From a virus, in the IMG/VR virus record IMGVR_UViG_3300044641_003944, positions 1-55,933 of that record: a stretch of 55,933 nucleotides of DNA, one strand, 5' to 3'. Made by a program: the position numbers and the translations under genes. Below are positions 18,301 through 55,933 of the stretch, piece after piece. Position 1 is the first letter of the stretch; every line of letters starts with the position of its first letter. The notes below the pieces were generated by a model that searched no databases, was not told the DNA's origin, and worked only from the letters and a program-made list of their open reading frames with translations.

Positions 18301-21300
18301 CCTGAAGCGTTGGATGACCTTAAGATTGATAGAATTCAATCTGGTTCGTTTGAAGCCGTAATTTCTCCAAATAGAGGATTGGAAATTGGAACTAGAACAT
18401 TCGTGTCTGGTAACTTAAGTGTTAGTGGTGGATTATTTGTGACTGGTGGAAATGTAACTGTATCTTCTGGTTCATCGTTTATTGGTGATGGTAGTGGTTT
18501 GACAAATATTAATATTGCAAACTTATCATTTGAAACATCTTTATTACAATCAGGTTCGGCAATAGCTAGAATATCTCCAAATTTTGGATTTGTAGTAAAT
18601 ACATCATCTTTGATTGATGGTAATTTAGTAGTATCAAATAAAATAACTGCAAGTAATTTAATATTTGCACCATTATTTACTGGTTCTTTCTTAGGTACTT
18701 ATAATTTCCAAGGAGTAGGTCCTACCGCATCCGCAGAATATGATATTTTAAGATTTGATACTGATAGAGGATATTTTGTACCTCAACCTGAAACATCATT
18801 AACTGAAACTGTATCATTCAATAGTGTAAGCGATTTAACTATCGTACACAACTTGGGAATTAGATACCCAATGGTACAGGTATATGCAACTGGTTCTGAA
18901 GACCAATTATTGCCTGGTCAAATTATTTCAATTGATGATGACACAATCCAAATTAAATTTGCTGGATTAACATCTGGACATGTTGTAATTGGTAGTGGTG
19001 GTTCTCTAATTAATGGAACAATAAATGGTGATAGAGTATTTGGACCAGTACTATCAGCATCTTATGCAGTAACTGCGGAATTTGCAAAAACTGTAGCTGG
19101 ATTTGATTCGGCATCATTAGCAAATTTATCAGCATCATTGAGTGATACTGCTCAATATGTAAGAAATAATCAAACATCATCAATGTCTGTATTTAGTGCA
19201 GTAAGTTCTTCTTACGCATTAACTGCATCTTATATTGAAAATTTAAGTGGATTAAATCTAACTGATTATGTAAGAAATGATAGAACATCATCAATGACAG
19301 TTTTATCAGCATCATTCGCTAGAACGGCATCTTACGCATTATTCGCACAAAATGCATCAAATGTAGATACAACAAACTTTGTTCAGAATTCACAAACTGC
19401 ATCAATGTTGGTTGGTACTGCTTCATTAGCATATACTGCATCTTACGCTCTTTACGCTCTAAATGCGGAAGGAGTAAATACGGCATCATTCTTACAAGTA
19501 AATAAAGACAGTAGTATTAACGCAAACTTAACTGTTAGTGGAAGTTTGGGAGTTAGTGGTAGTTTATTATTACAAAGTTTACAAACTGGTTCATCCGAAG
19601 ATGTTGTAATTTGGAATAGTGTAACAAAGAAATTAGAAAGAAGAAATATAGTAGCGGCAGTTGGTTCTTCTGGAACTGGTGGTACTTCTGGGTTAGATGG
19701 TACTGCTGGTTCATCTGGTTCTTCTGGAACTAGCGGAACATCTGGTTCTTCTGGAACAAGTGGTACTTCTGGTTCTGCTGGAAGTAGTGGAAGTAGTGGT
19801 ACAAGCGGACAAGATGGTTCTTCTGGTTCTTCTGGAAGTAGCGGTAGTAGTGGTTCGAGTGGTAGCAGTGGTTCTTCTGGAAGTAGTGGAAGTAGTGGTT
19901 CAAGCGGTAGCAGTGGAACAAGCGGTAGTAGTGGAACGAGTGGTAGTAGTGGAACGAGTGGTACAACTGGTTCAAGTGGTACTTCTGGTAGCAGTGGTAC
20001 TTCTGGTAGTAGTGGTTCAAGCGGTTCGAGTGGTAGCAGTGGTTCAAGCGGTACTACTGGGTCATCTGGCTCTTCTGGTTCATCAGGAAGTAGTGGAAGT
20101 AGTGGAAGTTCTGGAACAAGCGGTACATCTGGTACATCTGGTACATCAGGAACGTCTGGCACATCGGGAACTTCTGGAACATCTGGTTCAAGTGGAAGTG
20201 GTGGTTCATCGGGAACTTCTGGTACAAGCGGAACATCAGGAACATCAGGCTCTTCTGGTTCATCCGGCTCATCTGGTAGTGGTGGAACTTCTGGTAGTGG
20301 TGGAACAAGTGGTTCATCTGGAAGTGGTGGCACAAGCGGAAGCGGTGGAACATCAGGAACTTCTGGTACAAGCGGAAGTGGCGGAACTTCTGGTTCAAGC
20401 GGAAGTGGAGGAACTTCTGGTAGTGGTGGAACGACTGGTTCTGCTGGTACATCAGGAACTTCTGGGTCTTCAGCAACAGCTGGTACTGGTGGTACATCTG
20501 GTACTTCTGGAACAAGCGGAACTTCTGGAACAAGCGGAAGTGGAGGTACATCGGGCACAAGCGGAAGTGGTGGTACATCGGGTACTTCTGGTAGTGATGG
20601 TTTGAGTGGAACTTCGGGAACTTCTGGTACGTCTGGTACAAGTGGTAGTGGTGGTACATCGGGAACTTCTGGTACAAGTGGCACAACGGGCTCGGCAGGT
20701 ACATCAGGAACTTCTGGTTCATCTGGAAGTAGTGGTACATCGGGTACAAGTGGTGAAGATGGAACTTCTGGAACTAGTGGAAGTAGTGGAAGTAGTGGAA
20801 CATCAGGTACAACAGGTAGTAGCGGAACTTCTGGTTCTTCTGGAACATCTGGGTCATCTGGAAGTAGTGGTTCTTCTGGAAGTAGTGGTACTTCTGGTAC
20901 TACGGGTTCAAGCGGTACTTCTGGAACTAGCGGTACGTCTGGTACAAGCGGAACGGATGGTACAAGTGGTACATCTGGGTCAAGCGGTAGTAGTGGTACT
21001 TCTGGTACAACAGGTTCATCTGGGTCAAGCGGTAGCAGCGGTACATCGGGTACAAGCGGAACGGATGGTACAAGTGGTACATCTGGTTCTGCTGGAAGTA
21101 GTGGAACATCCGGAACAAATGGTTCGGCTGGAACATCAGGTTCGTCTGGTTCAAGTGGTACATCTGGAACTGATGGTACAAGTGGTTCAAGTGGTTCTTC
21201 GGGAACTTCTGGTTCAACTGGAACTGATGGAACTTCTGGAACAACAGGTTCTGATGGAACTTCTGGAACAAGTGGTTCTGATGGTAGCAGTGGAACAAGC

Positions 21301-25635: not shown

Positions 25636-28600
25636 ATGGAATATTTGGGTAAAAGTCCTAATGGGTTAAATCAACTAAGTTCATCCTTAGTTGGTTTGTT
25701 TGTAAGTGGTAGTAATATAGCACAATTTTCATCAGCATCAGTAAATGTTGTTGGTAGTGTTACTGCTTCTGGAATACAAGCATACGAAATAGATTCTTTT
25801 GGAAACTTACCATTGGAAATAAAATCTAATACTCAAATAACTGGGTCTTTAGCTGTATCATCTTCAATAACCGCATCTTTATTTAGAGGTGATGGTGCCG
25901 GATTGTTTAATATATCAGCCACATCTATTGGTGATATTGATAAAATAAAATCAGGTTCAGCAACTGCAATAATTTCACCAAATAAAGGGTTGGTAGTAAA
26001 TGTACCAACTTCAATTGATGGTGTATTGGCAGTAAACGGAAATTCAAACATAACTGGTTCAGTTGTAATAAGCCAAAACTTAAATGTGGCTGGAAAAATT
26101 ACAACAACTGAATTACATACAACATTTATATCATCTTCAGTAATATTCTCATCTGGTTCAAATAAATTTGGTGACAACGTTATTGATAGACAAGAAATAA
26201 CTGGTTCTTTAAACGTAAGTGGTTCTATATTTGTAGGCGGAAATACAATACCAACCGATAATACAACAAATGAGGTGTTGGTGTTGAATACTACAACTGG
26301 TAGAATTAGTAGAAGATTTGCAGCAGCAACTTCTGGTACATCAGGAACTTCTGGCACATCAGGAACTTCTGGAACATCAGGAACTTCTGGAACATCAGGA
26401 ACTTCTGGCACATCGGGAACTTCTGGAACAAGCGGAACTTCTGGTACATCAGGAACTTCTGGTACATCAGGAACTTCTGGTACATCGGGAACTTCTGGTA
26501 CATCGGGAACTTCTGGAACATCAGGAACTTCTGGTACAAGTGGAACATCGGGTTCTTCTGGTACTCGTGGAACAAGCGGAACTTCTGGAACATCAGGAAC
26601 TTCTGGCACATCGGGAACTTCTGGTACAAGTGGTACATCTGGTTCTAGTGGAACAAGCGGAGCTAGTGGTAGTAGTGGTAGTAGTGGAACATCTGGAACT
26701 TCTGGCACAAGCGGTACATCTGGAACTTCGGGTATAAGTGGTAGTAGTGGAACGAGTGGAAGTAGTGGAACAAGTGGTTCTTCTGGAAGTAGTGGAACGA
26801 GTGGAAGTAGTGGAACAAGTGGTTCATCGGGAACTTCTGGTATAAGTGGTACATCAGGAACTTCTGGTATAAGTGGTACATCAGGAACTTCTGGTACATC
26901 GGGAATAAGTGGAAGTGCTGGTACGTCTGGTACAAGTGGTATAAGTGGTACATCGGGAACTTCTGGTACATCAGGAACAAGTGGAACATCGGGAACTTCT
27001 GGATTAACTGGAGCCGGTGGTGGTACTGGAAGTTCTGGTTCAAGTGGTTCTTCTGGAACTTCAGGAACATCTGGAACAAGCGGAACATCAGGAACTTCTG
27101 GGACTAGTGGTATAGGTGGAGCAAGTGGTACTAGCGGAACATCAGGAACTTCTGGGACTAGTGGTACATCGGGTATAAATGGAAGTAGTGGAACATCCGG
27201 TACACGTGGAACTTCTGGTACAAGCGGAGCTAGTGGAACTGGTGGTACTTCTGGTACATCAGGAACTTCTGGGACTAGTGGTACATCTGGTACATCGGGT
27301 ACTTCTGGTACTTCTGGTACTTCTGGTTCACGTGGAACTTCTGGAACAAGTGGAGCCAGCGGAAGTGCAGGTTCATCGGGAACTTCTGGAACAAGTGGCA
27401 CATCCGGAACTTCGGGTATAAGTGGTTCATCGGGAACTTCTGGTACATCAGGAACTTCTGGTACATCAGGAACTTCTGGTAGTCGTGGTACAAGCGGAAC
27501 TTCTGGCACAAGTGGAGTAAGTGGAAGTGCCGGTACAAGTGGTACTTCTGGTACAAGCGGAACATCGGGAACATCTGGAACATCGGGAACTTCTGGAACA
27601 TCTGGAACTTCTGGAACATCTGGAACTTCTGGAACATCGGGAACTTCTGGAACATCAGGAGTAAGTGGTTCATCAGGAACTTCTGGTACAAGTGGAACAT
27701 CGGGAACTTCTGGAACAAGCGGTACGTCTGGAACATCAGGAACTTCTGGAACAAGTGGTGTAAGTGGTTCATCGGGAACTTCTGGTACATCGGGAACAAG
27801 CGGTACATCAGGAACAAGCGGTACATCAGGAACAAGAGGAACTTCTGGTACAAGCGGAACTTCTGGTACGAGCGGAACATCCGGTACATCAGGAACATCT
27901 GGAACAAGTGGTTCATCTGGAACGCGTGGGACTTCTGGAACTTCTGGAACTTCTGGTACATCAGGAACTTCTGGAACAAGCGGAAGTAGTGGTTCATCTG
28001 GATTACTATCATTAACTGGTACAACTGATAATGGTGTAATCACATTAAATGGAACTGCACCAAACGCAACTGTTGAAGCAAACTTAAAATTCGATGGTAG
28101 TACATTGACAGTAACGGGGGATGCTACAATTAGTGGTAACTTAACTGTAAGTGGTACAACAACTACAATTAATACCGAAACAATCCTATTAGCGGATAAT
28201 ATTATAACTCTTAACTCAAACTTCACATCTGGAGCACCAACTGAAAATGCTGGTATCGAAGTTAGGAGAGGTTCATCTGCAACTGTACAATTTTATTGGG
28301 ATGAAACCAATGATAGATGGTATGCAGATAATACATTACAGGTTGTAGGCAACGTAATCCTTAGTGGTACAATAGATACTGGACAGGGAGCAACGGAAGT
28401 TCATTTAATGAATCAGAATCTTCGTACAACTGATAACGTAACACATGCTACAATTACAGCAACAAATGGTGTAAGTGTAACTGGTGGAAACCTTTCAGTA
28501 AGTGCTGGTAATATAACTATAAGTGGTACAATAGATACTGGACAAGGTGCAACCGAAGTTCATTTAATGAACCAAAACGTTAGAACTTCTGATAACGTAC

Positions 28601-31600
28601 AATTTGCAACAGTAAACGCATCTAATTTTAGAGATGGTAATGGTGCATTCAACGTAAACTTAGGTAGTGGTGGTTCTGAAGGTAGAGGTTTAGTTGCTGG
28701 ATATAGTGGTGGATGGTATGGTGGTATCGGGTATAACGTAAGACATACAGGTACATCTGGTACTTTAATAGCACCATTAACCGATACGGCAACATATCTT
28801 AATTTTAGTCAAGGATTTACTTTCTATAATGACCAAACAACTACTGCTGGTAGAACTATTGGTTGGACTCAAATCGGTAGATTAGATAGTGCAGGTACAT
28901 TTACAATTCCTGGTAACTTAGTTGCGGCACAGGTAAATACTGGACAAGGTTTAACTGAAGTTCATTTAATGAACCAAAATGTTAGAACAACTGATAGTGT
29001 AACATTTGCTAATATAAGTGCTGCTAATACAACTGTTAATAATTTAATTTTACCACAAAATCCGGTAGGAACAACTTATGGAAATGGTGTATCAACAACA
29101 CCACCATATATGATTTCCCAAACCGTTGGTGATAATGATGGTTGGCGAATTTTTGGTGAAACATCTACAACAAATGCCGTAAGAATGGTATTTGAATTGA
29201 TTGATGATATTGAAACTGCATTTACTGACCAATGGGCGTTTAGAAATAAATTAACATACGGTGGTTATACTGCAAGAAATGAATTCCAAATATCAGGAGA
29301 TGGAGATGCATTAGCTCGTACATCGATGAGGGCTCCAATTTTTTATGATAGTGATAATACTGGATATTATGGTAATTTTGCAGCAACATCCGAATTAAAT
29401 GCCGCAAATCTATATGGAACTTGGGCTTGGAGAAATGGAGCACAACAAAACTTCTACACATCAGCTGGAAATTTAAGAGGATATATTCAGGCAACTGATA
29501 CCGATGATGCACACTTCATTATAGCTACATCCGGTGGTGAAGATATATCATTTAGAGATGGTGGACTGGCGGGATCTGTGAATATGGTAATTAGAGGAAA
29601 TGGTACGGTTCAGGCATACGATGATTTCAGAGCACCAATATTCTATGATTCGGCAGATACAACATATAGAATTGATGCAAATGGCACATCTGTTGTTGAT
29701 ATAATGGAATTTGGTGGTGATATATCAACTAACACTTCAAATGGTTCTAAAATGTTTGGTATGTTTATACCGGATGGTAAATATCAAACTCGTAATTGGC
29801 ATGCTGGTGATGGTGGATATGTTTGGGGTGGAATGCAATATAGAACAGGATTATCGGATTCTCCAATTGGTTCATACGCACATAGCGGAAACTTTGCCGC
29901 TTGGGCAGGATGGAGACAAAACGGATGGGTGCCAATTGATAGAACAAAAACATATAAAGTTTCTGCTTGGATAAGAACAACATCTGGTAATCCATATTGC
30001 TATCTTTCATTTACGCAAGCTGGATTTGATTATTCTCAACCTGATAATGGTGGTTGGGGACAACCTTATTATTGGAGTGGTGTGGCACCATCTTCTTGGA
30101 CAGAATACACAATGACTATTGGACCTGCTGGGTCTGGAGCTCAATATACTTGGTATTCATACGCAAGATTCATGCAGTTAGGCTTCCTACATAACTATTT
30201 GTATAGTGGATATAGTGGAAATGCGGAATTTGTAGGATTTAAAATTGAAGAAGTTGATAATACATTAGCTAATAATACTGTTGTATTAGGACCTATTTAC
30301 GCAACTCAATTTATTGATAATAATGATGGTAGTTTCTTAGTTGACCCTAATGGTACTTCTAGACTTAGTGTTTTAACACTAACATCTACATTCAATTTAC
30401 CAAACAACGCATTAGTATCAGTAAATAATGAGCCGGATACTTGGGGTGCTAGATTTAGAACAACAACATCTACATCAAACTTAGGTTCGGCACTTAAAAA
30501 TATTATTTGGACAGGTGGGGGTAGTTCCGAAGGTTTTGCAGTTTCTGGAGTAGGAACTGGTGGATATGCATTAGAAGTAAGAAATGATGGTATAGCTTGG
30601 GCTAGGAGTTCATTTAGAGCACCTGAAATTTACGCTGACCGTTTTTATGATGATGATGGAACATTTGCATTTAGATTTGCACCAAATACTGGTGTATCTA
30701 GAGCGATAAACTTGGCAAGTAGTACATCAGACCCATCAAGTGTTGGTTCAGCATCTGGTATCACATCTGGACAAAGAAGTGATGGACAACCATACTATAT
30801 GCTTTATGTACCATCTGCTTATAACAATGGATATAGTACACATACTCGTTTAAGATTAAATTGGCATACTGGTGTTGAAATAGGAGCTGACCCATCGTAT
30901 GGTGGTACTAGATTCTTTAACGGAAACTTACCAATTTACGGAAGTGAAATAATGTCAATCGGTGCTGGTGATTCTAATATAAGAATTACAAACACTTTAT
31001 TTGTTCCGTATATTGCAGATAGAGACAATACGGCATTCTATCTAAACCCTGCTGATACGGGAAATTCTATTAATATAGCAGGTTCATTACGAGCAGCTAA
31101 TTATAATAAACCGGCTATTATGTCTGTGTCAAGCGGAACATCTTCAGCTGGGGCATCATTTGGAATTCAACAAGAAACGGCTGAAGGTTGGACAGGTATA
31201 TTTGTAGATTATGAACCATATACTGGATGGGGATTCTACCATGATAATCCAAACAACCTATTTTCGTTTACTTCTGAAGGTTCAACTGGGCAAATTCGTT
31301 CATTTACTGTACCATCGAGAGTAAGTGGTAATAGAACGGCTTATGAGAAACTTAGAATTGACCAAAATAATGGTGATATAATTGTTGGTAGAGATGGTTA
31401 TGCACAATCATCATTTAGAGCACCAATATTCTATGATAGTAACAACACAACATATTATATAGACCCTAATAGTAACTCTGTTATAAGAGGTAGATTGGAT
31501 GTTCAGGCTGGACATGGTAATACAAATATAAGATTAACTGCAATAGGTGGGGAGATGGGTTCTGGTGTACAATCTACTATGCAGTGGTGGGTATCTGAAC

Positions 31601-33948
31601 CGGGTGTAACTTGGAACGATGGTGGTTTTGGATATAACGTACAAAACGATGGTGGTTCTCCTTCTGGATTTGGTAGATTGAATACGGGATTAGGACAGGC
31701 TTACATGAGATTCAGTACAGCTGGGCATTTATATTTTTATAACACAAATACTTCTGGTACTAGATATTCTACTATGGATATGTATGCTAGTAATTACATA
31801 TATGTTCATAACTATTTAGAAGCAGGTAGTTCATTAAGAGCACCAATATTCTACGATAGTAATAATACTGGATTTTATACTGACCAAGCATCTACATCTC
31901 GATACAATGAGATAAGAGCTAACAAAATGCGTGCTGATACCAATGGTGCTATGAGTGATGACCAGGGTTGGTGGACGCATGACCCGTATGGATATGGGTG
32001 GGGTAAACCACATGGTTCATTCCGTACATTGGAGGTATCTACATCTGGTAATTTCAGTACTGAACCAATGTTGTTCCGTATGCACCAGTGGGGTTCTGGA
32101 GCAGCAGAATTCTGGAAACCACAAGGTCTTACTCTTTTCTTGAGAGAAACTCCAATTGGTGGTAATATTAAGCACAGTAACTGGTTTACTCGTTTTTATG
32201 TACAAAGATACATTGAAACGGATGAATCAATGAGAGCGCCAATTTTCTACGATAGTGATAATACTGGATATTATGTAGACCCTACCGGCGAAACAAACTG
32301 GCAAGGATTAACTTTATATGCAAAAAATAGAATTGGTTTAGCCGCTAAGGAGCAGTATAGAAGAAGTGATTACACTGGTGATACTAACCACTGGACTGGT
32401 GCTAGAGGATGGGGTACTACTTCATTCAATGACCAAATGAACTGGGGTTCTGGTTGGGGTGATTCTTGGGGTAGTATTGGACAATCTCCTGGCGATACTT
32501 CTCATTATTTAACGGCACAAGTATATCACTATTCTTATTCTGGAGTTGGATATGGGTGGCAATTAACTGGTGGTGTTACTGATTCATTGTGGTGGAGACA
32601 TAGCTGGCCATCTAATAGCGGTTGGTTCAAAATCGCAATGTATGATAATAATGCATCAGCGGGTGGTGCGTTATGGGCAGGTATATTTTATGATTCAAAT
32701 GATAGTGGATATTATTTAGACCCAAATACTACATCAAATGCTGCATTAAGAATTAGAGGTGGTACATTACATGGACCTAACCCAAGTTGGGGAAAATATT
32801 TAGCAGTTGGTACAAACGGACATTGGACCGGTGGTTATGCTAGTGTTGCTGTAACCAATGGTAACCTTCACTTAGATTCTGAAGGTGGGTATGGTATGTA
32901 CCTACAATGGTATGTTGGTGGTAGCACCTATGTAAATGGTGATATACGTGCAAACATATTCTATGATTTGCAAAACACCTCATATTATTGTGACCCTACT
33001 GGATATTCTCAATTTAGTAGTGGTGAGTTTAACAACTATATGAGAGCAGCTCGTATAGACTTCATTGGTACGGGTGGTAACTCTGGACAAGGTACAAATG
33101 CATACTCTATCTTCCAAGAAGGTGGTGGATGGGGTTATCCTTATCCGGATTTAAGAATTGCATACCATACTGGTATCAAATTAGGAGCAAACGGACCTTC
33201 TTATGAAGGAACAAGAGTTTACACCGATTATGATATGAGTGATTTAGCAATCCAATTGTGTGGACCATCAAACTATTCATTTAAGTATAAATGGATGTGG
33301 ACAAATGATACTGGATATTATTCTAGTGTAAATGGGGCACACTGGTATCCAAATAACATCACCTATGGTGCTTGGAGAATGGATGGTAATCGAAATGGTT
33401 GGTATGGACACGTAATTGATTCGGCGTATTTACCTCACTATATGTGGGAGAGTGGTAATGGTGGAATATATTTACAAAATGCCGGAAGATGGGTATTATA
33501 TCATTCATTGGGAAATAACTGTACCGGATTGGGTACATCAGCAACATCTGGCGCATACGGTATATATGTAGATAAAGGTGTTTACACTACTGGAAACGTT
33601 GTAGCTTACTCCGATAGACGTGCAAAAGAAAATATTGTAACTATTGATGATGCATTAAGTAAATTAATGCAATTAAGAGGTGTTTATTACAATAGAATAA
33701 AAGATGAAGATAAAGTAAGACAATTGGGTGTAATTGCACAAGAAGTTAATGAGATAGTTCCTGAAGTAGTAACTTATGCAGAAGATGTTGATGAATACGG
33801 AGTTGCTTATGGTAATTTAGCTGGATTATTTATAGAATCTATAAAAGACCAACAAGCAATTATTGATAAACAATCTGAAGAAATAAATTTATTAAAAGAT
33901 GAATTACAAAAAATTAAAGATTTAATATTTAATACTAATAAAGGATAA
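25636..33948 (+). CDS. Giant tail fibre with C-terminal S74 intramolecular chaperone (2770 aa)
   Basis: Residues 1-230 are fibre units shared with the 3759-residue fibre (GDGAGLFNI; FISSSVIFSSGSNKFGD). Residues about 232-789 are Gly-Thr-Ser triplets. A conserved fibre segment follows (ISGNLTVSGTTTTINTET, then LLADNIITLNS and YWDETNDRWYADN). About ten units of the form RAPIFYDS.NTGYY.DP.GTS run from about residue 1230 to 2440, alternating with long Trp/Tyr/Gly-rich insertions. The C-terminus from about residue 2655 is a peptidase-S74 chaperone domain: SDRRAKENI with candidate nucleophile Ser2659, VIAQEV, YGNLAGLFIESIKDQQ, and a final coiled coil. S74 domains drive trimer folding and then cut themselves off, so mature fibre should end near residue 2658. 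The gene begins 13 nt after the preceding stop. Confidence 0.85.
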   Translation: MEYLGKSPNGLNQLSSSLVGLFVSGSNIAQFSSASVNVVGSVTASGIQAYEIDSFGNLPLEIKSNTQITGSLAVSSSITASLFRGDGAGLFNISATSIGDIDKIKSGSATAIISPNKGLVVNVPTSIDGVLAVNGNSNITGSVVISQNLNVAGKITTTELHTTFISSSVIFSSGSNKFGDNVIDRQEITGSLNVSGSIFVGGNTIPTDNTTNEVLVLNTTTGRISRRFAAATSGTSGTSGTSGTSGTSGTSGTSGTSGTSGTSGTSGTSGTSGTSGTSGTSGTSGTSGTSGTSGTSGTSGTSGTSGSSGTRGTSGTSGTSGTSGTSGTSGTSGTSGSSGTSGASGSSGSSGTSGTSGTSGTSGTSGISGSSGTSGSSGTSGSSGSSGTSGSSGTSGSSGTSGISGTSGTSGISGTSGTSGTSGISGSAGTSGTSGISGTSGTSGTSGTSGTSGTSGLTGAGGGTGSSGSSGSSGTSGTSGTSGTSGTSGTSGIGGASGTSGTSGTSGTSGTSGINGSSGTSGTRGTSGTSGASGTGGTSGTSGTSGTSGTSGTSGTSGTSGTSGSRGTSGTSGASGSAGSSGTSGTSGTSGTSGISGSSGTSGTSGTSGTSGTSGSRGTSGTSGTSGVSGSAGTSGTSGTSGTSGTSGTSGTSGTSGTSGTSGTSGTSGTSGTSGVSGSSGTSGTSGTSGTSGTSGTSGTSGTSGTSGVSGSSGTSGTSGTSGTSGTSGTSGTRGTSGTSGTSGTSGTSGTSGTSGTSGSSGTRGTSGTSGTSGTSGTSGTSGSSGSSGLLSLTGTTDNGVITLNGTAPNATVEANLKFDGSTLTVTGDATISGNLTVSGTTTTINTETILLADNIITLNSNFTSGAPTENAGIEVRRGSSATVQFYWDETNDRWYADNTLQVVGNVILSGTIDTGQGATEVHLMNQNLRTTDNVTHATITATNGVSVTGGNLSVSAGNITISGTIDTGQGATEVHLMNQNVRTSDNVQFATVNASNFRDGNGAFNVNLGSGGSEGRGLVAGYSGGWYGGIGYNVRHTGTSGTLIAPLTDTATYLNFSQGFTFYNDQTTTAGRTIGWTQIGRLDSAGTFTIPGNLVAAQVNTGQGLTEVHLMNQNVRTTDSVTFANISAANTTVNNLILPQNPVGTTYGNGVSTTPPYMISQTVGDNDGWRIFGETSTTNAVRMVFELIDDIETAFTDQWAFRNKLTYGGYTARNEFQISGDGDALARTSMRAPIFYDSDNTGYYGNFAATSELNAANLYGTWAWRNGAQQNFYTSAGNLRGYIQATDTDDAHFIIATSGGEDISFRDGGLAGSVNMVIRGNGTVQAYDDFRAPIFYDSADTTYRIDANGTSVVDIMEFGGDISTNTSNGSKMFGMFIPDGKYQTRNWHAGDGGYVWGGMQYRTGLSDSPIGSYAHSGNFAAWAGWRQNGWVPIDRTKTYKVSAWIRTTSGNPYCYLSFTQAGFDYSQPDNGGWGQPYYWSGVAPSSWTEYTMTIGPAGSGAQYTWYSYARFMQLGFLHNYLYSGYSGNAEFVGFKIEEVDNTLANNTVVLGPIYATQFIDNNDGSFLVDPNGTSRLSVLTLTSTFNLPNNALVSVNNEPDTWGARFRTTTSTSNLGSALKNIIWTGGGSSEGFAVSGVGTGGYALEVRNDGIAWARSSFRAPEIYADRFYDDDGTFAFRFAPNTGVSRAINLASSTSDPSSVGSASGITSGQRSDGQPYYMLYVPSAYNNGYSTHTRLRLNWHTGVEIGADPSYGGTRFFNGNLPIYGSEIMSIGAGDSNIRITNTLFVPYIADRDNTAFYLNPADTGNSINIAGSLRAANYNKPAIMSVSSGTSSAGASFGIQQETAEGWTGIFVDYEPYTGWGFYHDNPNNLFSFTSEGSTGQIRSFTVPSRVSGNRTAYEKLRIDQNNGDIIVGRDGYAQSSFRAPIFYDSNNTTYYIDPNSNSVIRGRLDVQAGHGNTNIRLTAIGGEMGSGVQSTMQWWVSEPGVTWNDGGFGYNVQNDGGSPSGFGRLNTGLGQAYMRFSTAGHLYFYNTNTSGTRYSTMDMYASNYIYVHNYLEAGSSLRAPIFYDSNNTGFYTDQASTSRYNEIRANKMRADTNGAMSDDQGWWTHDPYGYGWGKPHGSFRTLEVSTSGNFSTEPMLFRMHQWGSGAAEFWKPQGLTLFLRETPIGGNIKHSNWFTRFYVQRYIETDESMRAPIFYDSDNTGYYVDPTGETNWQGLTLYAKNRIGLAAKEQYRRSDYTGDTNHWTGARGWGTTSFNDQMNWGSGWGDSWGSIGQSPGDTSHYLTAQVYHYSYSGVGYGWQLTGGVTDSLWWRHSWPSNSGWFKIAMYDNNASAGGALWAGIFYDSNDSGYYLDPNTTSNAALRIRGGTLHGPNPSWGKYLAVGTNGHWTGGYASVAVTNGNLHLDSEGGYGMYLQWYVGGSTYVNGDIRANIFYDLQNTSYYCDPTGYSQFSSGEFNNYMRAARIDFIGTGGNSGQGTNAYSIFQEGGGWGYPYPDLRIAYHTGIKLGANGPSYEGTRVYTDYDMSDLAIQLCGPSNYSFKYKWMWTNDTGYYSSVNGAHWYPNNITYGAWRMDGNRNGWYGHVIDSAYLPHYMWESGNGGIYLQNAGRWVLYHSLGNNCTGLGTSATSGAYGIYVDKGVYTTGNVVAYSDRRAKENIVTIDDALSKLMQLRGVYYNRIKDEDKVRQLGVIAQEVNEIVPEVVTYAEDVDEYGVAYGNLAGLFIESIKDQQAIIDKQSEEINLLKDELQKIKDLIFNTNKG
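26329..28002 (+). repeat. Second Gly-Thr-Ser tract, with an 18-nt DNA period
   Basis: About 558 codons of Gly-X-Y triplets, mostly GTS, with scattered Arg, Ala, Ile and Val substitutions. At the DNA level long stretches alternate ACT TCT GGN with ACA TCN GGA, giving an 18-nt period for a 9-nt coding unit. Confidence 0.9.
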
Positions 33949-47522: not shown

Positions 47523-47908
47523 GGGGGTGACTCGGAATTGATTACAATGAGAATTGTAGTATCACATGTAGTGGGATGGTTCTCCAACCACTTTAATCTC
47601 GGAATCAACAAATAAACGCAGAAGAATTATCTTCTTGGACCTTCGAAGATGCTATGGCATTCGTAGGTGCTGATTACGCTGTAGCAGCCTAATCAAACTC
47701 GGGTCGGTGCACATATAACCTAGGAACAGAAGTGTTTACAAAGGCTTTATTCGTTGAGCCCAAATCAATGAATTGGTGGAAACGCTGAACTAACCATTCG
47801 GCCCCAATTATTTTGGAAAGTGAATAAGATTAAACTTTATCCTAAACATGTGAGACGTTGGTATTATGGTTACTTTGTAAGACATGGGTTCGAATCCCAT
47901 CACCTCCA
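47523..47908 (+). ncRNA. ssrA: Transfer-messenger RNA (tmRNA)
   Basis: The 5' end GGGGGTG pairs with CACCTCC (47901-47907) to make a 7-bp acceptor stem with a G3-U pair, the alanine identity element; the discriminator is A47908 and CCA is not encoded. A T arm with 5-bp stem ATGGG/CCCAT and loop TTCGAAT lies at 47884-47900. Helix 2 is seen as TCACATGT (47562-47569) with ACATGTGA (47846-47853). The tag frame starts at GCA 47618 and stops at TAA 47690: 24 codons, beginning AEELSSW and ending GADYAVAA, the hydrophobic end expected of a protease tag. tmRNA plus SmpB rescues ribosomes stalled on broken mRNA and marks the product for degradation. No SmpB gene is in the window, so host SmpB is probably used. 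The tag is longer than the usual 8-15 codons. Confidence 0.93.
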
Positions 47909-47912
47909 CAAC

Positions 47913-49284: not shown

Positions 49285-49887
49285 ATGAAAAAAATCAGTA
49301 CCCTTATCGGTTTCCTACTTGTTTCTTTAATTTCGTTTGGGCAAGATGTTAGAATTAAAAACGAAGTATTTGAAGTTCTTTATTCACAATCATTAGAACA
49401 ACCTTTAGTAATTAAATATCGTTCAACTAATAGACCTACAAATGTGAACAGAGGTACTATGGATTTTTACAAAGAACCAAACATTAAAACATCAGATGCG
49501 GAAGATTACGCTAAAAATATATACGATAAAGGACATGGTGCACCAGCTGCAACATTCTCTGATAATATGGTAAACCTAAAACAAACATTCTCATACTTAA
49601 ATTGTATAATGCAAGACCAATACCTTAATAGAGGTGAGTGGAGATTGTTAGAAGAACAAATCCGTAAATGGGATGATACTGAAAATATAACTGTACTAAT
49701 AAAAACATTCTTTGATACTCCAGTAAAAAGAGTGGCAACTGGAGCAGCAATTCCATCTTACTTACAAAAACACATCTATTTTGAAACACAAAAGAAATGG
49801 AGATGTTATGTATTTCTAAATCAAAAACCAAAATTTCATTGGGATGAATTAGAAATGATATGCGAAGCTGAAGACCACAAATTTTAA
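49285..49887 (+). CDS. Secreted DNA/RNA non-specific endonuclease (NucA/EndoG-like)
   Basis: The first 20 residues form a signal peptide (MKKISTLIGFLLVSLISFGQ), of a style common in flavobacteria. The catalytic segment DKGHGAPAA (His84) matches the DRGHMAPAA motif of Serratia nuclease and endonuclease G. YLNRGEWRLLEEQIR (Asn115) matches the Mg-binding NxGxWxxLE helix. These enzymes cut DNA and RNA in the periplasm or outside the cell. At 200 residues it is near the lower size limit for the family. It could scavenge host nucleic acid, destroy extracellular DNA around the lysing cell, or block a competing phage's DNA during entry; none of these is shown. The stop overlaps the next start (TAATG). 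Confidence 0.85.
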   Translation: MKKISTLIGFLLVSLISFGQDVRIKNEVFEVLYSQSLEQPLVIKYRSTNRPTNVNRGTMDFYKEPNIKTSDAEDYAKNIYDKGHGAPAATFSDNMVNLKQTFSYLNCIMQDQYLNRGEWRLLEEQIRKWDDTENITVLIKTFFDTPVKRVATGAAIPSYLQKHIYFETQKKWRCYVFLNQKPKFHWDELEMICEAEDHKF

Positions 49888-52800
49888 TGAATATGAATTT
49901 ATCTGAATTAATAAACGAAATACTATCCGAATGGGCATATAGAGTTGAAAATGGTATGCCTGACCCAAAGAACCCAACCCATTTAAAGGAGTTGGGTATT
50001 GTACTTTCTGAAATGGGATTATCTCATATCAAAGATACATTGGTTGAAAACCTTTTGGTGGAAACGGGAAAAACTCCACAAAAAGTTGTTGAAGCTGAAA
50101 AGGGTAACTTTACAAATCCTGCTCTTAATAAATCTATTAAGTATAAAAATGATAAAGGTGAAGATAAGGAAGGATTGGTTGGTAACCTGTTAAGATTACC
50201 AAAAGAGCATCCTGGTAGAAAAGCAGCGGAAGCAACATTACCTGCCGATGGTACGCCGGAAAGAGATTCTATTAATAAAGATTTGGGTGGGGAAGGTCAA
50301 CCTAAAAAGCCTGAAGATGGAAAGGGCAAAGAAGGTGGAGAATCAGGTGGTGGAGAAGATGAAAAAATGAAACAAGCGGCGGCAATGTTTGACCCAAAAG
50401 TAGACCCAGCTATGGCTGCTAGAATGAATAAAGAAAAAGAAGTTCAAGCTCAATTAGCAAAAGATGCTGAAGCACAAAACGAACCACCCCCAACTCCAAA
50501 AAACCAAACAACAAACAAACAATTAGCAAAAGCAGCTGGATTTGATAATGTTGGTAGTTGGTATAATGACCTTAATAAGAAAGCAATGTCTGATGATCCT
50601 GAAGTGGCATCAAAGGCGGAAAAAGATTTAGATACATACGAAAAAAATAAAGTAAAAGATGCTCAATCAACTGATGATTTTAATCCAATAGATAGTAAGG
50701 ATGTAGCAAAAGAAATGCCACAAGCTGACCCAGAAACATTTGGAGGAGATAGTGATATACCGGATGGTATAGAACCTGAACAATTGCAAAAATTCAATAC
50801 TGATATTAGTAAAGTAGCACAGCAAGTAGCTGATGCAAAGGCTAAAGGAGAACCAGCACCAAACATTAACTTATGTGATGTGACTGTTCCTGGTACTAAC
50901 TTATATTGTGATGATAATTTGGGTATTCCAAGAGACCAAATGCCACAATTCAAAGGTACTGCTCAACCTGGTAGTAGAGCAGCTGGAATGGATGTGGATG
51001 CAAGTGGTGAGGTAGACACTGAACCTGTATTCAAAGAAATGTTAAAAGAGAAAGGTATTAAGACATTACAAACGGAAATACCTGCTGATAAATTAAAAGC
51101 AACTCAGCAAGATTTAGTTGGTGCAAAAGTAGTTGGTATGATGGGTGTTTTAAAAGACCCAAATCACCCAGCTTTTGAAAAAATTACCGCACCAATATAT
51201 GTGAGTAGGGATGGTCACGTAATTGATGGACATCACCGTTGGGCGGCAATCGTAGCTCATAATGCAGCAAATCCAGACAATCAAATACCAATGAAAACAA
51301 CGGTATTGGATATGGATATTAAAGATGCAATTCCAATGGCGAATAAGTTTGCAGAAGATATGGGTATTGCGGCTAAGAAAGCAGATGCAAATAAAGAAGC
51401 ACCAACCGAACAACCATCAGAACCAGCAAAAAGAGAACCTGCCAATAATGATCCTGAATCTAAAGCACAGCAATTTAAAGGAAAATCATCTGGTGAAAAT
51501 ATCCAAACAATGGAAATGGAAGGTGGTGGATTCGTATATGGAACGAAGCACGGAAACACCGCAATGGTTGATGATATATTAGATGATGTTAAATCTAAAA
51601 TACCAAAAGAAAGATGGAAGGATGTTGTATTCGTAGGTGAGGGAGGTGCAACTGGTGATAGTGGTGAAGTGGAATTTAACGATGAAATGGATTACGCAGC
51701 TCCAAAGTTCAAAGAAATGGGTGCTGGTGTGGATACATGGGATGGTGATGATATGGATGTACATAATGACCAATCTAAATTATACCAAAAGCAAAAAGAA
51801 AAAACTGGATTTAACGATTCTCAAGTTAAAGCTGGTAACTGGGCTAGTATGATTGGGCAGGGAGAAGGTACTGATACAATGTCACCAAACGATTATTTAG
51901 ATGATGAAGGTAAACAATTCTTAAGTGATGCTGCAAAAGAGGCTGGATTCCCACCAATAGAAAATTGGAATGAACCAACCGAACAGGATAAAGATACTCT
52001 TTATAGATTATCATTCCCAGAAGATAATGGTGATAAACCAACAAAGATAAATGATATTCAAGTTGCATTTAATGATGCAAGAGATGAAAATTTAATTGAA
52101 AAGAATAAAGAACTAACTGCACAGGGTAAAATACCTATTACGATTGCAGGTGAGAGTCATGTTGACTTAGTCGATAAAATGACAAGAAAACAAAAAGGAG
52201 CATCAAGCGAAAAATTACCTGAACCAGAAGCCCCATCAGAAGAAGATGGTGGTGTTGTATATAGTGTGGGTGGTGGATATTATTCGGATAAGCCTGATGG
52301 GCCTGCACAATATGTGGCAACTGAAAATGTAATTCAAAAAGTATTAATTGAAGGTGATATTAATTTTTCTTATTTATTGTTTGAAGCAGCAGTAACTAAA
52401 AAAACTTCTAAAGGTAAGGTTGTAAAATTAAGAACAATCAAACCAAAAGACCAAAATAAAGCAACTGCAGCAGCTGCGGCAGCAAAACCACAGCCACCTG
52501 CTAAAATTGTACCACCGGGAGTAAAACAAAAACCACCGGTTATCGCACCACCAGAGGTAAAACCAAAATCACAAGCACCTGCTAAAATTGTACCTCCTGG
52601 TGTAAAACCAAAGGCATCAGTTCCACCTCCACCACCGCCTCCACCGCCGCCACTTCCTAAGAAGAAAGCAGGAGCTGTGCCACCTCCACCGCCACCTCCG
52701 CCACCAACGGTGAAGAAAGCAGGAGCTGTGCCACCGCCACCGCCACCACTTCCTACGAAAAAAGCAGGAGCTGTGCCGCCTCCACCGCCACCTCCGCCAC

Positions 52801-55800
52801 CAACGGCGAAGAAAGCAGGAGCTGTACCACCTCCACCGCCACCTCCTCCGCCGCCACTTCCTAAGAAGAAAGCAGGAGCTGTACCTCCTCCACCGCCACC
52901 TCCGCCACCTCCACCGCTTCCTAAAAAAGCAGGAGATAAAAGTGGTTGGGATGGATATGAAGAACCTGAATGGATAAAAAATGCTCCAAAAGGTTGGGAT
53001 GATGATGCGGTTAAAAATAAGAGTGCTTGGGGTGATGAACCAATGCAAGAACCTGATTGGATGAAAGGTGGTTCTTCGTGGGATAAAAAGCCAATGCCTA
53101 AAGGTGAAACTCCACCTCCTGGTACTAAAAAAGCTGGAGCAATTCCACCACCGCCTCCACCGCCTCCACCGGGAGCTAAGAGTGCAAATAATAACGAAAA
53201 TATACCACCAACCGATAAACAAGCAAATGAACAAATAGCTCAAGAAAGAAAAGGTTTAACTCATGAGGAAAATCAAGTTTATGAATTCTTAGAAGGAATG
53301 CCTGAAGAGCAAAGGGCAGAGGCAATTCAAAAAGCATTGGATGATAGAAGTTTGTTGCAAAAAGGATTGCAAGATACAATGGTAGGCGGTTGGTTTAAGA
53401 AGAAAGGGAAAATGTTGTCTAATGTATATGATGGAATAAAGCAATGGTATAAAACAGGTAAAGTTGGTACTACTAAAGATTGTAGTGGTGCACCAGCTGG
53501 ACCTCATGCAAATAAGAATGAAAATATAAAAGAAGATTCACAAAATAGACAAGACTATTTAGCATCTTTAGATAAGACGGGTAAAAAGAAAAAGAAAGCT
53601 GATGATAGTGATTGTATGGATGTGCATGTTGAGGACTATCAAAAAAGAGATAAAGATGGTAACTTAATGTACAAAAAAGAACCTGTATATGAAAGTGGAG
53701 AAAAACCAGACCCAAAAAACTTTGGACCAGATGGTGCATATTTCGGTGGGTTGGGAACTGGATACATAGGTCCTAGAAAAACTGGAACTGAATATGGTAA
53801 TGCTTCTAAAGAAGATGCATTTAAAGCAAGTGAATTAGATTCTAAAACAGGATACTTTAAGAGAGATGGAAAATACTATGGTGTAGATGGTGAGGAAGTA
53901 AATGCGAAAGGACAAAAATTAGATGCAGAGGGTAATACAACACAAAAGACAGAAAGATGTTTCTTTTGTTTTCCTCCGGGAAAAAAGGTCCCAGTTACGC
54001 AAAAAGTTGCTGATTTGGAAGATGGTTTAACCGCTGAACAAAAACATGCAGCTCATCATTCGGAACATGCTCAACATGAAAGAAAGCATGCGATGTGGCA
54101 TTTAGGAATAGAAGCTTCATTGATAGTTGGTGGTGCATTAGCTGGCCCTATGATATTAGCTAAGATGGGAGTCGGTGGAGCAGCTGCTGGAGCTGGTTCG
54201 CATGGTGTAGCACAAGCAACTTCACAAGCCGCAACAGCCGCAGCTGAACATCACGGAGCATCTGCATTTGCAGCACACGTTTTAAAAGATTTTGGAAAGC
54301 ATGCATTAGCAGAAACATTAGGAGTAACGAACCCTTATGCAGCAGCAGGGAGTGGGTTGGCAGCAAGTGCAGTTACTGGTGGTGTATTAGAATCATTTTG
54401 GAAAGATGTAGAAAAGTATAATTTATTATCGGAAGATATTGATGGAGAAATGGATGAGAATAAAGGTAAAGATTTCTTAGAAAAAATTATGGTATTGATG
54501 ATGGAGAAAATGAAAACTTACAAAATGACTCCTCAGCAAAAGTTGGAAAGTATAAGAAAGTATAAATTTGAAAAAGCTGAAAACGAAAAGAAAAAACAAA
54601 AACAAGATAAATTAAAAGATTTGGCTAATTTACTAAAAGAAAAAACAGCAAAGTCAAAACAAAATTCTATAAATCATTTTGTTGAATTTGCAGCTAAACG
54701 ATTAAATTTAAAAGAAACTCCAAAAATTAATTTAATGAGTGGAAATGAATTTAAAAATGAATTGGCAGCTTTGGGTGGGTATGACCCTTCTTCAAAAGAA
54801 ATATTTGTTGCAACCGAAGGAAGATTGACAGCTGATATTTTAAGAACTATTGCACATGAAATGGTACATAGAAAGCAAGAAGAAAAAGGATTCCTTAAGA
54901 ACATTGATAAAGATGGTTCAGCTGGGTCTAAAATAGAAAATCAAGCCAATTCAATTGCTGGAATTTTGATGAGAGAATATGGTAAGATAAACAAACAAAT
55001 CTATAACGAAAATACAAAAAAACAATTAGAATTAGTAAGTAATTTATTATTAGAGAAGGTTAATCGTTTTATTGATGAGGCTAAACCAAAGAAAGATGAT
55101 CCTGATGTAAAATATATAGATGGAAAAGGAAAAGAACATACAATCAAATTTTCATCAGCAATTAAGTATGATGAAAAACATCCTGCTTATATAGCAGCTA
55201 TGAAATTAAAAGATACTGGAGATAACTCAAATGATACCCAAACTGTTCAAGGTGCAGGATTGTTTGATGACCCAGAATATCAAAAAAGAATGGGAGCTGA
55301 AGTACCACCAACACAAACAACACCAACTGATTCAGAAGAAAATCCGGAAGGATTGTATGACCCTAATGATAAATTACAATCGGCAGTTGTTGATGCAAAA
55401 AATCCAAAAGAATTATTTTCCGCATTAGATGAATTAGGTAAAGATGAGGAAGATATAATGTTGGATAAGGTTAAAGCTGGGGCAGGTGGTCCTGTTGCAT
55501 CAACTGGTGAAACTCTTTGTACTGAAGCTCAAACTAATATGATACAAGGTAGATATAATCCGAAGGAAGTTAGGAGTTCTACGGAATATAAAGCCGAATT
55601 GGCAAGTGTTAGAAATGTAATGAGTGGTACTGATAAGAGAGCAAAAACTGCTCTTACTAAGGAATTGGATAATATTTGTGACAAAATGGGGTATTATAAA
55701 GAAGATGGTAACCCTGATTATGAATTAGCAATGGCTATGAAAGCCGAAGCAGATTTGTATATTAAACAAAATTTACCAGCTTTCAAAAAAACAAATGTAG

Positions 55801-55933
55801 CAAAAACTAAATTTAAAAAAGAAGAAGATATGGTAAGTTGGATGAAAGCATCATTCTATTCATCATATTCTTTAATAAATAATGGACCTGCTGATTGGGA
55901 TAGAAAAAAGGGTAATGGTAGAGTAATGAAAGC
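49887..55933 (+). CDS. Giant polyvalent-type protein: ParB-like, TraB-like, polyproline and zinc-peptidase domains (3' end missing)
   Basis: I translated this frame through to the right edge and found no stop: at least 2015 codons. The start is ATG 49887, overlapping the nuclease stop; ATG 49893 is in the same frame. Domains in order: a short N-terminal helix block (ILSEWAYRVENGMPDPKNP, residues about 10-50); a charged linker; a ParB-like motif, VSRDGHVIDGHHRWAA (DGHHRW at 447-452); a TraB/EreA-like region with GTKH (552-555), VFVGEGG (Glu585), RDEN (732) and IAGESH (to 758); polyproline repeats (913-1016); a Trp-Asp segment; a second proline run; a CFFCF cluster; a His-rich then Ala/Gly-rich hydrophobic stretch (about 1375-1500); and HEMVH (1657-1661) with Glu1684 in ENQAN as likely third zinc ligand. 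Large multi-enzyme proteins of this kind are known in phages as polyvalent proteins, probably delivered with the DNA. Confidence 0.75.
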   Translation, partial: MNMNLSELINEILSEWAYRVENGMPDPKNPTHLKELGIVLSEMGLSHIKDTLVENLLVETGKTPQKVVEAEKGNFTNPALNKSIKYKNDKGEDKEGLVGNLLRLPKEHPGRKAAEATLPADGTPERDSINKDLGGEGQPKKPEDGKGKEGGESGGGEDEKMKQAAAMFDPKVDPAMAARMNKEKEVQAQLAKDAEAQNEPPPTPKNQTTNKQLAKAAGFDNVGSWYNDLNKKAMSDDPEVASKAEKDLDTYEKNKVKDAQSTDDFNPIDSKDVAKEMPQADPETFGGDSDIPDGIEPEQLQKFNTDISKVAQQVADAKAKGEPAPNINLCDVTVPGTNLYCDDNLGIPRDQMPQFKGTAQPGSRAAGMDVDASGEVDTEPVFKEMLKEKGIKTLQTEIPADKLKATQQDLVGAKVVGMMGVLKDPNHPAFEKITAPIYVSRDGHVIDGHHRWAAIVAHNAANPDNQIPMKTTVLDMDIKDAIPMANKFAEDMGIAAKKADANKEAPTEQPSEPAKREPANNDPESKAQQFKGKSSGENIQTMEMEGGGFVYGTKHGNTAMVDDILDDVKSKIPKERWKDVVFVGEGGATGDSGEVEFNDEMDYAAPKFKEMGAGVDTWDGDDMDVHNDQSKLYQKQKEKTGFNDSQVKAGNWASMIGQGEGTDTMSPNDYLDDEGKQFLSDAAKEAGFPPIENWNEPTEQDKDTLYRLSFPEDNGDKPTKINDIQVAFNDARDENLIEKNKELTAQGKIPITIAGESHVDLVDKMTRKQKGASSEKLPEPEAPSEEDGGVVYSVGGGYYSDKPDGPAQYVATENVIQKVLIEGDINFSYLLFEAAVTKKTSKGKVVKLRTIKPKDQNKATAAAAAAKPQPPAKIVPPGVKQKPPVIAPPEVKPKSQAPAKIVPPGVKPKASVPPPPPPPPPPLPKKKAGAVPPPPPPPPPTVKKAGAVPPPPPPLPTKKAGAVPPPPPPPPPTAKKAGAVPPPPPPPPPPLPKKKAGAVPPPPPPPPPPPLPKKAGDKSGWDGYEEPEWIKNAPKGWDDDAVKNKSAWGDEPMQEPDWMKGGSSWDKKPMPKGETPPPGTKKAGAIPPPPPPPPPGAKSANNNENIPPTDKQANEQIAQERKGLTHEENQVYEFLEGMPEEQRAEAIQKALDDRSLLQKGLQDTMVGGWFKKKGKMLSNVYDGIKQWYKTGKVGTTKDCSGAPAGPHANKNENIKEDSQNRQDYLASLDKTGKKKKKADDSDCMDVHVEDYQKRDKDGNLMYKKEPVYESGEKPDPKNFGPDGAYFGGLGTGYIGPRKTGTEYGNASKEDAFKASELDSKTGYFKRDGKYYGVDGEEVNAKGQKLDAEGNTTQKTERCFFCFPPGKKVPVTQKVADLEDGLTAEQKHAAHHSEHAQHERKHAMWHLGIEASLIVGGALAGPMILAKMGVGGAAAGAGSHGVAQATSQAATAAAEHHGASAFAAHVLKDFGKHALAETLGVTNPYAAAGSGLAASAVTGGVLESFWKDVEKYNLLSEDIDGEMDENKGKDFLEKIMVLMMEKMKTYKMTPQQKLESIRKYKFEKAENEKKKQKQDKLKDLANLLKEKTAKSKQNSINHFVEFAAKRLNLKETPKINLMSGNEFKNELAALGGYDPSSKEIFVATEGRLTADILRTIAHEMVHRKQEEKGFLKNIDKDGSAGSKIENQANSIAGILMREYGKINKQIYNENTKKQLELVSNLLLEKVNRFIDEAKPKKDDPDVKYIDGKGKEHTIKFSSAIKYDEKHPAYIAAMKLKDTGDNSNDTQTVQGAGLFDDPEYQKRMGAEVPPTQTTPTDSEENPEGLYDPNDKLQSAVVDAKNPKELFSALDELGKDEEDIMLDKVKAGAGGPVASTGETLCTEAQTNMIQGRYNPKEVRSSTEYKAELASVRNVMSGTDKRAKTALTKELDNICDKMGYYKEDGNPDYELAMAMKAEADLYIKQNLPAFKKTNVAKTKFKKEEDMVSWMKASFYSSYSLINNGPADWDRKKGNGRVMK
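52623..52935 (+). repeat. Six polyproline repeats, formin FH1-like
   Basis: Six tandem units of 6-10 consecutive prolines followed by (L/T)(P/V/A)KKAGAV or close variants. CCA, CCT and CCG codons are mixed. A further run of about ten prolines is at 53146-53175. Runs of this length normally stall ribosomes unless EF-P is present. Confidence 0.9.

Follow-up and report, generated by a model that had tools for sequence, protein, structure and literature searches.

Polyvalent proteins such as P1 DdrB and the PLxRFG proteins of F116-like phages are giant multi-module chains with ParB-like and zincin domains whose modules are shuffled, and Iyer et al. proposed that this class is packaged in the phage head (PMC5512222). 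Capsid-targeting sequences are carried by IPI-III and Alt of T4, and the ejection proteins of phiKZ and SPN3US are packaged in the head and cleaved behind Glu residues by a protease of the gp21 type (PMC9026906). Here, we analyzed a giant gene of a T4-type myovirus in IMG/VR record IMGVR_UViG_3300044641_003944 (positions 1 to 55,933; this whole stretch of 55,933 nucleotides is called the window). The gene starts with ATG at 49887, and its frame (49887-55931, plus strand, 2015 codons) is still open where the window ends. Its product joins a ParB-like module (by sequence and fold), a TIKI-fold module, a zincin-like module, and a nuclease-like C-terminal tip in one chain; this variety supports the polyvalent class that the earlier note on this DNA had proposed. 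It is plausible, although we give it somewhat less than an even chance, that the protein is packaged by means of an N-terminal tag, cut by the prohead protease at LLxE sites (x represents any residue), and injected as separate effectors.

A giant gene with exchangeable modules

The frame is one real gene. A longer IMG/VR contig (3300042485_001470, 95 kb), which shows 0 mismatches to the window across 16,047 compared bases, supplies the sequence past 55933, where the single uninterrupted frame of at least 2015 codons described earlier continues to a stop after 2447 codons (L001:10001-17344). A locus with a different IMG dataset number (L014) overlaps residues 1975-2015 at 100%. The stop-free length (log10 P of about -69 for such a run, as expected from base composition), the 48-275 stops in each of the remaining five frames over the gene, and the even GC3 along the frame (0.17-0.22) indicate a single gene. 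An assembly artefact joining separate genes, which had been considered, is very unlikely, because complete multi-module relatives also have frames without interruption (1,230-2,136 codons).

In protein searches of IMG/VR, the window protein detected 14 loci and the TIKI-fold module 46, and a broader alignment used as query gave 79 loci, which correspond to the best 80 of 103 relatives. When each locus was represented by a single protein with both ends complete and the first ATG as its start, 111 proteins were obtained, which a k-mer cut reduced to 44 non-redundant ones. Both the ParB-like and the TIKI-fold modules were found in 31 of the 44 (hand count), with ParB first in 19 (one of them with a second ParB) and the reverse order in 12. 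The remaining 13 have the TIKI-fold module without ParB: in five it follows a nucleotidyltransferase-like start, recognised as GRFQPFHKGH (Pfam was run on this start in L011 only: PF01467, 2.1e-08), and eight are short proteins. Modules are exchanged between related phages. Stand-alone TIKI-fold proteins are 245-312 residues long; stand-alone or short versions were seen in L040, L042, L050, L053, L054, L256, L257, L267, and L285-L289, and with ParB in L273 and L280.

The ParB-like module (residues 372-501, 51000-51389, plus strand; residue r starts at 49887+3(r-1)) was drawn from 75 residues before to 55 residues after DGHHR at residue 447. A DGxHR box is a feature of the ParB/sulfiredoxin superfamily, and the motif (DGHHRW in the window protein) recurs among the relatives. 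The ParB-like assignment of the earlier note is now well supported by both sequence and fold. The module matches phrog_2859 (5.6e-17), and a search with the whole window protein matched 66 of 50,697 phage records; among the 40 matches listed, all lie within residues 344-529 and belong mainly to Pseudomonas phages of the F116 kind (tblastn). The region is about 32% identical to proteins of F116-like phages, some of which are annotated as structural or PLxRFG; in Epa33, the match lies inside a protein of about 3,800 codons that is annotated as structural. Structural alignment of a model predicted for residues 337-778 (mean pLDDT 84) gave sulfiredoxin, Noc, and ParB rows at Z 5-7.3, among them Noc at 7.3 across 90 residues, and a ParB/sulfiredoxin entry of BFVD showed 59% identity (E 2e-18).

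The zincin-like module (residues 1583-1740, 54633-55106, plus strand; its end was set by alignment) contains HEMVH at 1657-1661 and the Glu of ENQA at 1684. This block is conserved in L062, L063, and L064, and HExxH...E is present in all four aligned sequences including the window's. Three Synechococcus phage records match the zincin region at 31-35% when residues 1468-2447 are searched against annotated phages. In Pfam, all matches are sub-threshold (DUF6782, E 0.001, 18.8 bits, under the cut-off of 27), and a PDB sequence search with the zincin alignment gave nothing meaningful. The zinc peptidase proposed earlier is thus a weaker case than the ParB-like and TIKI-fold modules, with the motif present but no Pfam match above threshold; the module is likely, but not proved, to be a zincin metallopeptidase. 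Among the 44 proteins, the whole module occurs only in that of the window, and L269 has a partial match of 33 residues. Upstream lies a hydrophobic module (residues about 1400-1502, 54084-54392, plus strand), a candidate membrane-insertion segment according to hydropathy; the most hydrophobic 19-residue segment of the protein is at residue 1406. Similar hydrophobic stretches also precede the zincin in L062-L064 (by eye).

The giant proteins of these three loci (L062:6099-10460, L063:5005-9255, L064:6246-10364) lie upstream of terminase- and portal-like genes and combine a nucleotidyltransferase-like start, a hydrophobic module, a zincin, and a ligase-like EKTDGQ stretch (all by eye).

The proline-rich linker of the window protein (residues 913 to about 1095, 52623-53171, plus strand) is not conserved: three of the 44 proteins, among them that of the window, have proline runs of at least six. 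The formin-like (FH1-like) reading in the earlier note was therefore dropped.

The predicted TIKI fold and the MspI-like tip

The module at residues 522-775 (51450-52211, plus strand) had been described as TraB/EreA-like on the basis of GTKH (552), VGEGG (583), RDEN (732), and AGESH (754). The GTxH/EGG/RD/GxxH motifs are conserved among the relatives, and GxxH-E-R-GxxH (H555, E585, R732, G755-x-x-H758) is invariant in all 41 aligned sequences (29 of alignment A2 and 12 picked from the broader IMG/VR search). Among the 50 rows of the structural alignment, ChaN (Z 7.7), EreC (5.1 and 5.0), HopBA1 (4.8), and BcR135 (4.7 and 4.6) all align over model residues 170-436; PMT and BcR136 are absent among these rows, as judged by row titles. 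The EreC fold is common to ChaN, HopBA1, BcR135, BcR136, and PMT (PMC7979712), and RRSP of MARTX toxins has been compared with PMT, HopBA1, Bcr135, and ChaN as TIKI superfamily proteins (PMC6254334). RRSP has the same His-Glu-Arg-His order (H3902, E3930, R4001, and H4030; PMC6254334). The His-Glu spacing is 30 in the phage module versus 28 in both RRSP and EreC, and the Arg-His spacing is 26 versus 29 in RRSP. The phage module also lacks the Glu that precedes the first His by three residues in EreC and by two in RRSP, and it has an NWASM block that is phage-specific relative to the TIKI/EreA/ChaN superfamily.

Several results weigh against this fold assignment. All Z values are below 8 and are graded as middling by the alignment tool, unrelated rows at 4.7 and 4.4 stand beside HopBA1 and BcR135, and three VIA rows (8bqs_DQ, 8b6h_DQ, and 7w5z_E; a Tetrahymena respiratory chain subunit) tie with ChaN. 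Foldseek against PDB with the ParB-TIKI model gave nothing below 0.001. When the phage module was compared by profile with alignments of TraB, ChaN, and erythromycin esterase (Ere), nothing significant emerged, with probabilities of 0.4-0.9%, 3-4%, and 0.1%, respectively. The best-aligned stretch for TraB and ChaN was the R...GxxH end, and the Ere profile did no better than the tip and zincin alignments used as controls (six comparisons, 0.0-0.2%). The method is blunt: TraB versus ChaN gave 83.7%, but TraB versus Ere gave 0.1% and ChaN versus Ere 0.4%. The profile input comprised 20 of 25 listed TraB loci plus YbaP and three YbaP relatives, and rows with stops in plain translation were dropped (TraB 7 of 20, ChaN 7 of 20, Ere 1 of 5).

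Pfam TraB_PrgY_gumN (PF01963) matched none of nine members at E up to 10, and none of three records from related phages had a Pfam TraB match (E up to 1). A PDB sequence search with the TIKI-fold alignment gave nothing meaningful, the module had no match in the 50,697 phage records, and a single pattern search through genomes of bacteria and archaea returned 55 matches with no relative of the module among them. Nevertheless, we regard the coherent set of fold relatives as stronger evidence than single rows, any of which may be chance at Z below 8. The earlier suggestion thus stands at the level of predicted fold but not of the TraB family, and since sequence profiles give no confirmation, the module is best named TIKI/EreA/ChaN-fold. 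One uncharacterised giant-virus protein of 288 residues in BFVD (A0A3G4ZS86, Edafosvirus), possibly also of TIKI fold, could be aligned to the ParB-TIKI model across 239 columns (E 3.7e-3).

The earlier note had overlooked the C-terminal end of the protein and its exchange. This tip begins inside the window (residues 1860-2015, 55464-55931, plus strand), and its catalytic-type part lies beyond the window edge (2016-2447, with D2059, N2078, and K2080, only in L001). The tip family comprises 38 loci, with complete frames in 21 of 26 examined; 19 of the 21 are proteins of 653-796 residues with an N-terminal segment, a linker, and the tip, and the other two (L105 and L113) have about 1,400 residues with ParB and TIKI modules. 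Residues E16, D200, N219, K220, and K221 (numbering of alignment A5) are invariant in all 24 sequences, and D200, N219, and K221 correspond to D2059 and N2078-x-K2080 of the giant protein, which form the pattern D-x18-N-x-K.

The predicted tip structure (mean pLDDT 81) resembles the restriction endonuclease MspI (Z 7.2, rmsd 5.0, 214 residues) and also BsaWI (5.2) and AgeI (2.4); the top unrelated row is 3.7. In the model, D200 lies just ahead of strand 201-207, N219 inside strand 212-220, and K221 directly after it. The D-x18-N-x-K pattern is close to that of MspI, which uses D99, N117, and K119. MspI and AgeI recognise CCGG-containing sites. Likewise, BsaWI cuts W/CCGGW (PMC4652773). The tip differs from MspI in its 588 residues with a large helical part, in the rmsd of 5.0, and in showing no sequence match. 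Counting against the resemblance, the MspI Z value is below 8, a Foldseek search of PDB with the tip model yielded no match under 0.001, and the top 50 of that search included no restriction enzyme, the only nuclease recognised being a Cas12 protein. A PDB sequence search with the tip alignment gave nothing meaningful, NCBIfam and PADLOC gave nothing convincing on the tips (no NCBIfam match above cut-off), and two proteins consisting of the N-terminal tag plus tip had no match in annotated phages.

Comparison of 29 C-termini by blastp yielded eight tip groups. By eye, these are the MspI-like group; three D...SxK groups, one of which consists of two near-identical sequences; an HNH-like group (LDHH) of two near-identical sequences, L027 and L049; a group from the nucleotidyltransferase branch that ends in a ligase-like EKTDGQ stretch; and two groups without recognisable motif. 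None of these motif readings found database support. The HNH-endonuclease-like tip of L027 (9060-10319) and L049 reads LDHHVPYS...ENWDLMETPLNQ.

The invariant residues of the tip and the TIKI-fold module bear on whether the giant protein might instead belong to the head as a structural or scaffold-associated component, with enzyme-like folds that survive as relics and tips that serve assembly rather than attack. The gene of the nucleotidyltransferase-start branch does lie near terminase- and portal-like genes (by eye) and a prohead protease, and the structural annotation of some F116-like ParB homologues points the same way. However, relics would hardly keep catalytic-type residues invariant (D, N, and K in all 24 tip sequences; H, E, R, and H in all 41 sequences aligned for the TIKI-fold module), and stand-alone TIKI-fold versions exist. 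We consider this explanation distinctly improbable.

The N-terminal tag and LLxE sites

Also overlooked was an N-terminal tag (residues 1-60, 49887-50066, plus strand), which ends in NLLVE and is a candidate capsid-targeting propeptide. An HMM of 26 such tags, run against 4,706 six-frame stop-to-stop frames, matched only N-termini of this protein class, apart from two internal stretches of class members (i-E 16 and 55); it did not match the nucleotidyltransferase-start branch or the short proteins, which begin differently. Several of the short TIKI-fold proteins start with tags such as MIRLKSLLKE or MIKLMDILLE. The tag, about 60 residues long, precedes differing cargo, and 24 of 26 tags end in [LI]xE (hand count, with some near-duplicates).

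Among the relatives, two gp23-type capsid proteins have QLLDE|A, a predicted site with Glu at 61/62; T4 gp23 loses 65 residues (PMC9958956). Three gp21-type proteases of relatives start with MKSLLIE, MNKNLIIE, and MSKLLIE, comparable to LIE-9 of T4 gp21 (PMC9026906). The protease (PF03420) was found in 3 and gp23 in 4 of 10 records searched. Judged by its residues, the tag end matches the predicted prohead-protease site pattern of the capsid-targeted internal proteins of T4.

Similar sites lie between the modules of the window protein: LLFE|A at residues 830-834 (52374-52388, plus strand) and LLSE at 1513-1516 (54423-54434, plus strand), with LLKE at 1582 and LLLE at 1720 near the edges of the zincin-like module. 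We counted motifs in the 44 proteins outside and inside the drawn module cores (shuffled expectation in parentheses). LLxE occurred 56 (13.5) times outside and 3 (3.8) inside, [LI][LI]xE 151 (41.8) and 5 (17.1), and LxE 336 (215.7) and 85 (79.8), and the control LLxD 11 (11.4) and 2 (5.5). In 38 non-identical proteins, counts versus shuffling were 19 versus 1.0 for LLxEA, 54 versus 15.3 for LLxE, and 41 versus 16.0 for ExLL.

In the favoured reading, the ~60-residue tag would carry the precursor into the prohead, where a gp21-type protease would cleave behind the tag and at the inter-module LLxE sites, leaving separate effectors in the head that would enter the host together with the phage genome. 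The delivered set would comprise a ParB-like NTPase/nuclease, a hydrolase with the TIKI fold that may act as a protease, the zincin together with its hydrophobic companion, and an MspI-like endonuclease tip that would attack host DNA. A specific form of this proposal, possible but rather doubtful, is a polyprotein cut at LLxE and delivered as an effector set that includes the TIKI-fold hydrolase, without match in the annotated phage records searched, and that closes with an exchangeable nuclease warhead of MspI-like type in this protein and of D...SxK or HNH-like type in relatives.

Some observations speak against cleavage at LLxE. The reversed control ExLL was also raised outside the cores (34 versus 13.1 expected; 6 versus 4.0 inside), and LLxK departed in the other direction (11 versus 18.9 outside, 22 versus 4.9 inside). 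The LLxE counts come from a set of relatives in which identical sites recur, LLxE is absent from 15 of the 44 proteins (hand count), two of the three core sites sit at the edges of the zincin as drawn, and no prohead protease was found on the 95-kb contig, which starts inside gp23. Because LLxK and ExLL depart as strongly, shuffling overstates significance; LLxK reaches fourfold by relatedness alone, and therefore the layout of the sites at the tag end and the module joints, not the size of the excess, is the argument.

These controls also show that motif counts of this kind may depart from expectation on other grounds, which leaves room for a reading in which LLxE sites are ordinary helix ends and the polyvalent protein is packaged and injected uncut, or is cut only by its own zincin, as was proposed for P1 DdrB. 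In PMC5512222, Iyer et al. report ParB and zincin in one chain, describe autoprocessing as a likely theme, and note that the N4 virion RNA polymerase is uncut; a zincin motif is also present in the window protein. Yet the whole zincin is confined to that protein (1 of 44), whereas LLxE occurs in 29 of 44. We consider an uncut or self-cut chain unlikely, but worth serious attention.

Genomic setting and comparison with known systems

Genes for tail sheath, tube, baseplate, and long fibres lie upstream of the giant gene, and a gp23-type capsid gene fragment is located at the start of the 95-kb contig. Downstream are a GH19 endolysin gene and a RecA-like gene (identified by reading the translation). 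This downstream content, which lacks head genes, would fit an early protein that is synthesised after infection has begun, stays out of the virion, and uses its modules inside the cell against host or competitor DNA. However, the common tag ending in [LI]xE and the tag-like starts of short TIKI-fold proteins argue against it, as does the enrichment of [LI][LIVF]xE within the first 25 residues of phage ORFs (35 of 238, versus 13.8 shuffled and 13.3 in internal windows). An early protein is thus improbable. Delivery in the virion, also proposed in the earlier note, is still an inference, whose grounds are improved by the tag, the LLxE sites, and the T4-type head genes of relatives.

The upstream neighbour (49285-49887, plus strand) encodes a DNA/RNA non-specific endonuclease (PF01223 at 6.1e-20; phrog_14168), overlaps the giant frame by one base, and has a hydrophobic, signal-peptide-like N-terminus that appears Bacteroidota-like (by eye), so the host may belong to Bacteroidota. 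A similar gene is located at the same place in L002, L003, L004, and L013. In L001 (17382-17831), L002, L003, L004, and L013, the giant gene is followed by a short conserved gene (MKTQLLCTF...), which instead precedes it in L005, L007, L008, and L010. The window also contains a tmRNA gene (47523-47911, plus strand) predicted by ARAGORN, with a tag peptide ending in AVAA and 86.8 bits for Rfam tmRNA against a gathering threshold of 47. Three huge fibre genes of about 2.8-3.8 thousand codons lie at 1-11289, 12307-23586, and 25636-33948, the latter two with collagen-like matches.

If the proposed delivery is correct, T4-type head maturation doubles as the release step of a multi-effector weapon, and LLxE offers a simple rule for spotting injected effectors in uncultured phages. 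The TIKI/EreA/ChaN fold, seen in a macrolide esterase, a heme-binding protein, and injected effectors, would enter phage biology. Polymorphic toxins exchange their ends, and phages would swap nuclease-like ends in much the same way.

Literature searches gave no description of the giant protein among the rows listed; one of these searches, which mainly gave host-range papers, is a poor test. The earlier note had considered the architecture new. A ParB-zincin combination has already been described (PMC5512222), so that part is known; TraB and EreA do not occur in the main text of that article, nor do TraB, TIKI, or EreA in PMC7824862. Within the searches named here, the TIKI-fold module, the exchangeable MspI-like end, and the LLxE layout are new. 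Relative to the polyvalent proteins of PMC5512222, the giant protein is distinguished by its exchangeable MspI-like tip and by its T4-type tag and LLxE sites. As for T4 IPI-III and Alt, the relatives likewise have T4-type head genes and an N-terminal segment ending in a predicted prohead-protease site, but the tag has about 60 residues versus the first 10 of IPIII, several modules share one chain, and the likeness is one of pattern only. In phiKZ and SPN3US, separate proteins lose their propeptides (PMC9026906), whereas here a single chain would yield several effectors.

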